Assembly (NCBI RefSeq): GCF_004634385.1
Contig: NZ_CP037895.1
Span: 2,021,245-2,085,244, forward strand
Direction: 5' to 3'
DNA length: 64,000 nt
Source: Thermaerobacter sp. FW80
GTDB taxonomy: Bacteria > Bacillota > Sulfobacillia > Thermaerobacterales > Thermaerobacteraceae
The translations under genes and the position numbers were made by a program. The notes under the pieces are model-generated. The model was not told the origin of the DNA. It ran no database searches and saw only the letters and a program-made list of their open reading frames with translations. This document shows, piece by piece, positions 40,006-64,000 of the stretch. Every line of letters starts with the position of its first letter. The stretch's first letter is position 1.

Positions 40006-40044
40006 GTCGCCGATAGCAGGAATGACCAGCGGCGTGGAGAATCA

Positions 40045-40066
40045 TGTCGACCAGCTCGGGTCGACA
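40045..40066. promoter_or_regulatory. perfect 8-bp inverted repeat upstream of the flagellar operon
   Basis: TGTCGACC (40045-40052), six bases, GGTCGACA (40059-40066). Same 8-6-8 design and TGTC...GACA ends as the palindrome at 19755-19776. It lies just before the presumed flagellar promoter, a position fit for an operator. Confidence 0.5.
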
Positions 40067-40086
40067 GGGATAGACAAATCTATAAA
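40061..40086 (+). promoter_or_regulatory. possible promoter of the flagellar operon
   Basis: TATAAA (40081-40086) is the best -10-like sequence upstream of the riboswitch. The nearest -35-like hexamer, TCGACA (40061-40066), is only 14 bases away, so the call is weak. A transcript starting near 40093 would include the whole riboswitch. Confidence 0.35.
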
Positions 40087-40159
40087 CTTCGGGGGCGGGC
40101 GAGGCCTTGTGCCCCCGCCGGGCTCCAGGAGCGGTCGGAGCCTGGCGACGGCCCGCCCC

Positions 40160-40258
40160 CCGCGGCAGCGACAAAGGCACCCCTGCCGAAAGGCAGGCTC
40201 GCAAAGTCACGGGTCTACGGTCCCGCCCCGGCGGGACTATGACGGCCGGACTGCCGAA
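40160..40258 (+). promoter_or_regulatory. cyclic-di-GMP-I (GEMM) riboswitch
   Basis: P1 pairs CGGCAG (40163-40168) with CTGCCG (40251-40256). P2 is CCTGCC-GAAA-GGCAGG (40182-40197), carrying the conserved GNRA tetraloop. The junction reads CGCAAAGTCACGGGTCTACGG, close to the GEMM consensus. P3 is GTCCCGC (40220-40226) with GCGGGAC (40231-40237), followed by TATGACGGCCGGACTGCCG, which matches the conserved 3' half with the tetraloop receptor. GEMM-I aptamers bind c-di-GMP and often control flagellar genes. A terminator follows as expression platform and flgB is the next gene. Confidence 0.92.
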
Positions 40259-40291
40259 CGCCGCGTGGTGGTTCTGTCCCCGCCGTCGTGG

Positions 40292-40334
40292 GCCGCCCGT
40301 GGTGCCGGTTGCGCCGCGGGCGGCTCGTCTTTTC
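40292..40334 (+). terminator. terminator hairpin acting as riboswitch expression platform
   Basis: GCCGCCCG (40292-40299) pairs with CGGGCGGC (40317-40324), with further inner GC pairing, followed by TCGTCTTTT. It lies 34 bases past the aptamer. An antiterminator partner was not identified, so whether c-di-GMP turns the operon on or off is unresolved. Confidence 0.7.
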
Positions 40335-40463: not shown

Positions 40464-40910
40464 ATGTGGGGCGCCATCGACGACCGGCTGGCGGCGGCGC
40501 TGGAGGTGCTGGCCCTCCGTCAGCGGCTGCTGGCCCAGAACGTGGCCAATGCCGAGACCCCTGGCTACAAGCGCTACGACGTGGATTTCGACCGGGCGCT
40601 GGCGCTGGCCTTGGAGGCGTCGGGGAGGGGCGCCGGCAGGGCGGACGGCTTGCAGGCGGCGGGCCGAGGCCCGTTGCCCCTGGCCGCCACCCACCCCGCG
40701 CACCAGCCGGGCCGGGGACCCGCCGGCGCGGTCTGGCAGGCGGTGTACCGCGAGACGGGGACGGCCCTGCGCAACGACGGCAACAACGTCGACCTCGACG
40801 CCGAGATGGCGCGCCTCGCGGAGACCGGTCTGCACTACCAGGCGCTGATCCGGCAGCTCTCCGATCGCATCGCCTTGTTGCGCACGGTCATCGCCGAGGG
40901 GAGGCGGTAG
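40464..40910 (+). CDS. flgB: flagellar basal-body rod protein FlgB
   Basis: A 148-residue proximal rod protein and first gene of the flagellar operon. The N-terminal helix with LLAQNVANAETPGYKRYDVDF is the rod/hook family signature (NxANxxTPGYK). The C-terminal helix has NNVDLDAEMARLAETGLHYQALI. A Gly/Pro-rich loop lies between. ATG 40464 follows GGAGGGGG. Confidence 0.94.
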   Translation: MWGAIDDRLAAALEVLALRQRLLAQNVANAETPGYKRYDVDFDRALALALEASGRGAGRADGLQAAGRGPLPLAATHPAHQPGRGPAGAVWQAVYRETGTALRNDGNNVDLDAEMARLAETGLHYQALIRQLSDRIALLRTVIAEGRR

Positions 40911-63531: not shown

Positions 63532-64000
63532 ATGGGGGACGTGGAGCCGTTGCCCTTGGAGGTCAACCAGCCGGTGGAGATCGCCTTCGTGGACGAGCCG
63601 CCTGCGGGCGTCGGGGCGGGTCCCTACCGGACCCACGTGCTGGCGTCGGGGCCCAGCGGGATCGTCCTGGCGCTGCCCATGGCCCGCCATCGCTGGGTGG
63701 TCCCGCGGCCGGGCCAGGCGGTGAAGGTGGTCTACCGGGATCCGCGGGATCGCGGGTCGGATCGCGGGGTGTACGGGTTCGTCACCGTGGTGGTGGAGGC
63801 TCGCGTGGAGCCCGAGCCCGAGCTGCACCTGGCCCCGCCAGCGCGGGTCGAACGGGTGCAACGTCGCCACTGGGTGCGTCTCGACGTGCGCCTGCCGGTG
63901 CGCCTGGAGCGGGAGGGCGACCCGCCGGAGGTCCTGAGCGGGCACACCCTGGACGTCAGCGGCGGCGGCGCGCGGGTGGCGGTGCCCAAGGCCCCGGCGG
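63532..64000 (+). CDS. PilZ-domain c-di-GMP receptor, YcgR/YpfA-like (3' end outside window)
   Basis: The gene is open from ATG 63532 (after GGGAGGGGGACGGGGGG) to the right edge, 156 codons visible. An N-terminal YcgR-like barrel (LPLEVNQPVEIAFVDE, then YRTHVLASGPSGIVLALPMARHRWVVPRPGQAVKVVY) leads into a PilZ domain. Both c-di-GMP-binding motifs are present: QRRHWVRLDVRLPVRL (RxxxR) and DVSGGGARVAVPK (D/NxSxxG). YcgR-type proteins brake or redirect the flagellar motor when c-di-GMP rises. Confidence 0.88.
   Translation, partial: MGDVEPLPLEVNQPVEIAFVDEPPAGVGAGPYRTHVLASGPSGIVLALPMARHRWVVPRPGQAVKVVYRDPRDRGSDRGVYGFVTVVVEARVEPEPELHLAPPARVERVQRRHWVRLDVRLPVRLEREGDPPEVLSGHTLDVSGGGARVAVPKAPA

Follow-up and report, generated by a model that had tools for sequence, protein, structure and literature searches.

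A c-di-GMP-I riboswitch predicted to act as a transcriptional OFF switch ahead of the flagellar operon of Thermaerobacter

The c-di-GMP-I riboswitch Cd1 (Cdi-1-3) of C. difficile lies on the 23-kb flgB operon and has been proven experimentally to be an OFF switch (PMC6366702; PMC5386303), and its leader begins with a SigA promoter followed by an invertible flagellar switch (PMC5386303). In the c-di-GMP-I aptamer Vc2, the bases G20, A47, and C92 contact the ligand (PMC4744006). SigH promoters mapped in C. difficile, such as those of spoIIAA and cwp27, follow the pattern AGGAWW-N15-GAAT (PMC7438776, Table 3). Flagellar genes have been found in T. marianensis, but motility and flagella have never been observed and the species is described as non-motile (PMC3035304).

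The initial annotation of the 64-kb stretch of DNA from the heat-loving bacterium Thermaerobacter analysed in the present study (the window) proposed a c-di-GMP-I riboswitch with a terminator before a flagellar operon and referred to a precedent in clostridia, which Cd1 provides. The sequence supports this proposal, and we assign a probability of roughly 85% to the reading that the window contains a canonical c-di-GMP-I riboswitch functioning as a transcriptional OFF switch for the Thermaerobacter flagellar operon, with transcription likely started by SigH (Table 1). By analogy, the device would be of the Cd1 type, a kind already known. It shares with Cd1 the aptamer class, the position before flgB, a terminator in the leader, and an operon including sigD. 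It differs from Cd1 in its promoter, which is likely of the SigH type, in the second riboswitch present at flgF/flgG, and in that no invertible element was noted. Compared with Cd1, what is new is how deeply the system is conserved, the presence of a second operon, the SigH-type promoters, and a connection to silent flagella that lack an explanation.

Table 1. Features of the flagellar leader and operon, in window coordinates
Feature	Position	Strand	Support or remark
Putative SigH-type promoter, GCAGGAATG-N11-GGAGAAT (AGGAAT-N15-GAAT)	40016..40042	+	pattern match
SigA-like match TCGACA-N16-TAAACT, possible second promoter	40061..40088	+	9/12 consensus; 0.0 expected in shuffles
P1 extension, 5' strand CGCGGC	40161..40166	+	complementary to 40260-40265
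c-di-GMP-I aptamer with contacts G40176, A40203, C40254	40167..40259	+	RF01051 and RF03167 scores
P1 3' strand = antiterminator strand, CGCCGCGTGGTGG (= CGCCGCGUGGUGG)	40259..40271	+	two alternative partners
Intrinsic terminator, stem-loop 40292-40324, tail TCGTCTTTTC	40292..40334	+	conserved in five genomes
Terminator 5' arm, partner of antiterminator strand, CCGCCCGTGGTG (= CCGCCCGUGGUG)	40293..40304	+	
flgB, first operon gene	40464..40910	+	TIGR01396 91.4 bits, cut-off 59
flgC, fliE, fliF, fliG, fliH, fliI, fliJ, fliK, flgD, flgE, flbD, fliL (operon, first part)	from 40915	+	translations
fliM, fliN, cheY-like, fliO, fliP, fliQ, fliR, flhB, flhA, flhF, flhG (operon, second part)	to 63486	+	
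YcgR-like PilZ protein	63532..64194 (window part 63532..64000)	+	PF07238 54.8 bits, PF12945 38.6 bits
sigD	64267-65052, beyond window end	+	TIGR02479 271.7 bits, sigma-70 domains

The c-di-GMP-I type aptamer was the sole Rfam match in the window, and its presence and position are certain. The covariance-model check suggested beforehand gave an RF01051 score of 70.6 bits (cut-off 35), and the GAAA tetraloop, the CGCAAAG junction, and the tetraloop receptor that had been read from the letters are all legible, along with an extended P1. All ligand-contact bases, placed via the consensus lines, are canonical: G40176 (G20), A40203 (A47), and C40254 (C92). The aptamer shares consensus, contact bases, tetraloop, and receptor with RF01051 (GEMM-I) and its type example Vc2 and differs from them in a longer, G+C-rich P3 tip and the P1 extension. 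The Rfam clan filter, however, labels it RF03167 (c-di-GMP-I-GGC) instead of RF01051, with an E-value of 2.2e-12 over the 64-kb window, better than that of RF01051, and a score of 62.5 bits that barely exceeds the cut-off of 59. The GGC family reportedly originates from Weinberg 2017. It is nevertheless very improbable that the aptamer belongs to the c-di-GMP-I-GGC variant or is a cGAMP (GEMM-Ib) sensor, with a ligand other than c-di-GMP. RF01051 yields a higher bit score than RF03167, and comparison of the consensus lines showed that the junction CGCAAAG is that of RF01051, not the CGCGAAG of RF03167. In addition, cGAMP-class aptamers have A at the G20 position, where the window has G. The roles of the residues in the GHxxGD motif are established, and both GGDEF proteins of the genome retain its canonical Asp. 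Furthermore, the best model for the flgB aptamers within a single class is sometimes RF01051 and sometimes RF03167. The assignment to the GGC variant was rejected, as the window does not have G in place of A47, the RF03167 consensus base to which the name 'GGC' presumably refers. Because of the higher RF01051 score, the CGCAAAG junction, and the three intact contact bases, the element was filed as a canonical c-di-GMP-I aptamer, predicted to bind c-di-GMP.

The 3' strand of P1 can form two alternative pairings. CGCGGC at 40161-40166 pairs with GCCGCG at 40260-40265 in the P1 extension (P1 duplex approximately −13 kcal/mol), and the strand 40259-40271 pairs alternatively with 40293-40304, at −22.9 kcal/mol with one bulge. 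This antiterminator pairing ranked in the top 1.1% of 18,282 background 19-mers from the same sequence, whose G+C content of 76.6% makes many other strong pairings possible. The pairing was present in all five Thermaerobacteraceae leaders, with energies from −12.5 to −22.9 kcal/mol, and was strong in four of them and weakest in G003 (−12.5 kcal/mol). Among 23 leaders of the class, own pairs tended to be more stable than cross-leader pairs (Wilcoxon p 0.003). The terminator hairpin with its flanking pairs had an energy of −34.7 kcal/mol, compared to −3.9 ± 7.4 kcal/mol for shuffles, the best of which reached −22.8 kcal/mol. A U-tailed hairpin had been annotated 34 bases past the aptamer; the hairpin is present, its core (40292-40324) beginning at 33 nt, but the U-tract that follows, UCGUCUUUUC, is imperfect in the window, with 6 U in 10. 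Some congeners have better U-tracts, for example CUUUCUUUUCC in G001. Separately, a G/C-rich hairpin lies directly 5' of P1 at 40091-40160, with the arms GGGGGCGGGC (40091-40100) and GCCCGCCCCC (40151-40160), and the arms in congeners are similar, with changed bases.

The initial annotation gave no direction of control. Since P1, antiterminator, and terminator are arranged in this order and are mutually exclusive, the geometry predicts that the ligand turns transcription OFF, as in Cd1, and the riboswitch is very likely a transcriptional OFF switch on the flagellar operon. Four Thermaerobacter species and one sister genus retain this wiring. In some other c-di-GMP-I riboswitches, the ligand disrupts the terminator, and in Bc1 of B. 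thuringiensis the terminator unfolds with ligand (PMC11218506). In some species, the folds computed as most stable likewise have a broken terminator although parts of the aptamer are present, as an ON switch would. However, the minimum-energy folds disagree among the five species, and unconstrained folds were thus left out as evidence on direction. The terminator is opened by the 3' strand of P1 itself, which a ligand-bound aptamer would hold in P1, and Cd1, a flagellar c-di-GMP-I switch with an experimental test, is OFF (PMC6366702). We consider an ON switch very improbable.

Considering OFF control as the preferred reading, the following course of events is proposed. RNA polymerase, most likely with SigH, would start near 40050, the predicted start site. 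At a low c-di-GMP content, 40259-40271 would pair with 40293-40304, no terminator would form, and the genes from flgB through sigD would be transcribed. At a high c-di-GMP content, the ligand would hold the aptamer and P1 in place, leaving the terminator arm free, and transcription would end near 40334. The genes flgF/flgG would be under a further aptamer of this type. The genome encodes two GGDEF proteins for c-di-GMP synthesis and has four HD_5/HD-GYP matches, and the domain search detected no EAL phosphodiesterases in it. The bacterium can thus make c-di-GMP and probably degrade it.

The gene following the leader is flgB, as initially annotated, and the genes hslV and hslU lie upstream of the leader. 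The run of mostly overlapping genes from flgB to flhG spans 23 kb. NCBIfam models support FlgC, FliF, a FliI-type ATPase, a hook/rod protein, FliM, FliR, FlhA, and FlhF-like and MinD-like proteins, and the remaining operon genes were named by inspection of the sequence. Simple scans found neither a terminator-like site nor a SigA-like promoter on the + strand inside the operon; with no internal promoter of this kind, nothing there complicates the reading as a single operon. The operon of approximately 23 kb from flgB to flhG that had been annotated is thus a continuous gene run, but the regulated unit is probably larger. A YcgR-like PilZ gene starts 45 bp past flhG and sigD follows; because these genes stand directly past flhG, the regulated unit is put at approximately 25 kb. 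The operon probably extends to the PilZ protein and sigD, so that both the flagellar sigma factor and what is likely a motor brake that binds c-di-GMP would be among the genes under the switch. The earlier description of the locus as Bacillus-like holds for the gene order (hslV-hslU-flgB...) and for nothing else, the host being Thermaerobacter.

The promoter candidate farthest upstream in the leader resembles the SigH promoters of C. difficile and Bacillus in having AGGAWW-N15-GAAT, with a spacing identical to that of mapped C. difficile SigH promoters such as spoIIAA. SigH itself is encoded in the genome (381.8 bits; cut-off 294.8), and four Thermaerobacter species as well as G004 have kept the SigH-type site upstream of flgB. 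Such a site precedes the aptamer in 16 of 24 testable flgB leaders, compared to approximately 0.01 per leader expected from shuffles, in 10 of 16 flgF/flgG aptamer leaders, and in one of 16 aptamer leaders not beside flgB or flgF/flgG genes. The difference between flagellar aptamer leaders (26/40) and the others (1/16) has a Fisher p of 5e-5, which is optimistic because the genomes are related. The whole 3.04-Mb genome contains 23 SigH-type sites, compared to five in a reversed-pattern control, and both of its aptamer leaders have one upstream. The order SigH-type site, aptamer, flgB recurs in Moorella and in a Fermentithermobacillaceae MAG. A SigH-type site is also present in two leaders of the class that precede flgB but have no aptamer.

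The SigA-like site downstream (Table 1) and the SigA promoter of C. difficile flgB (PMC5386303) would fit a SigA promoter in the window as well, in which case AGGAAT-N15-GAAT would be coincidental and the riboswitch unaffected. However, SigH-type sites are rare in the genome and yet precede both aptamer leaders, they are far more frequent in flagellar aptamer leaders than in others, they recur in the flgB leaders of Moorella and Fermentithermobacillaceae, and the SigA-like patch is, by eye, not clearly retained in congeners. We thus regard a SigA promoter as unlikely and the use of SigH at the flgB leader as likely. In the literature searched, no flagellar operon with both a SigH promoter and a c-di-GMP riboswitch was found.

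The second controlled operon and the SigH-type promoter were missed in the initial annotation. The second c-di-GMP-I aptamer of the genome, at C1:1020834-1021001, lies 460 bp before flgF-like and flgG-like genes. A SigH-type promoter precedes it, and a clean terminator, CCCCCGGCAGCCGCCGGGGGTTTTC, follows it ahead of these genes. This aptamer has a long P3 insert, and Rfam reports only a short 57-nt match, the end of which was rejected as wrong; the true 3' half is located approximately 100 nt on, after the insert. One of the two GGDEF proteins, a GAF-GGDEF protein of 556 aa, is encoded approximately 15 kb from this leader. A SigH-type site precedes its gene start by approximately 40 bp (C1:1035925) and is kept in all four Thermaerobacter species, while the G004 variant has GAAC and one extra base; such a site stands before only this one of the two diguanylate cyclases of the genome. 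Should this site be genuine, SigH would increase flagellar transcription and, at the same time, the signal that halts it.

SigH is a transition-phase and sporulation sigma factor. The combination of a SigH-type promoter with a riboswitch suggests that the flagella of the class belong to the transition from growth to sporulation. It is possible, though we hold it as a tentative proposal with rather less than even chances, that throughout the class SigH starts transcription of the two flagellar operons, each by way of a c-di-GMP OFF riboswitch, and that in Thermaerobacteraceae it also drives a membrane diguanylate cyclase, forming an incoherent feed-forward loop. If so, SigH would turn flagella on and then off via c-di-GMP, making the cells motile for a brief period between growth and sporulation, and such a loop would explain complete flagellar operons in bacteria described as non-motile.

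At least one c-di-GMP-I aptamer was found in 39 of the 41 genomes of the class sample. In 29 of 37 flgB loci of relatives, an aptamer lies within 1 kb before the FlgB match, the nearest copy being 92-306 bp away and mostly approximately 100-200 bp, and automatic matching placed an aptamer upstream of flgF/flgG-type rod genes in 14 genomes. Elsewhere, an aptamer at flgB was found in Moorella sulfitireducens and an Eubacteriales MAG. The flgB-linked switch is thus the rule in the class and not an oddity of the window locus. The flagellar riboswitch of C. difficile is no special case either, as an entire class of Bacillota has c-di-GMP-I leaders on flgB and often also on flgF/flgG.

The riboswitch circuit could explain why motility has not been observed in T. 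marianensis. The whole locus might instead be decaying, with the riboswitch a relic in a genus described as non-motile, in line with the motility and flagella never seen in T. marianensis (PMC3035304). However, the operon consists of long intact frames, the flagellin, sigD, and rod genes are present, and five genomes conserve aptamer, terminator, and promoter, so that decay appears highly improbable. The riboswitch circuit, which we prefer, offers a direct test of why Thermaerobacter with flagellar genes has never been seen swimming.

Two genomes have tandem c-di-GMP-I aptamers before flgB (G007; G023:C69:52907-53158). Inspection by eye indicated that, in the class, genes for Flp pilin or TadE-like pilus proteins follow several of the non-flagellar c-di-GMP-I leaders, which suggests that flagella and Tad pili are under opposite control.
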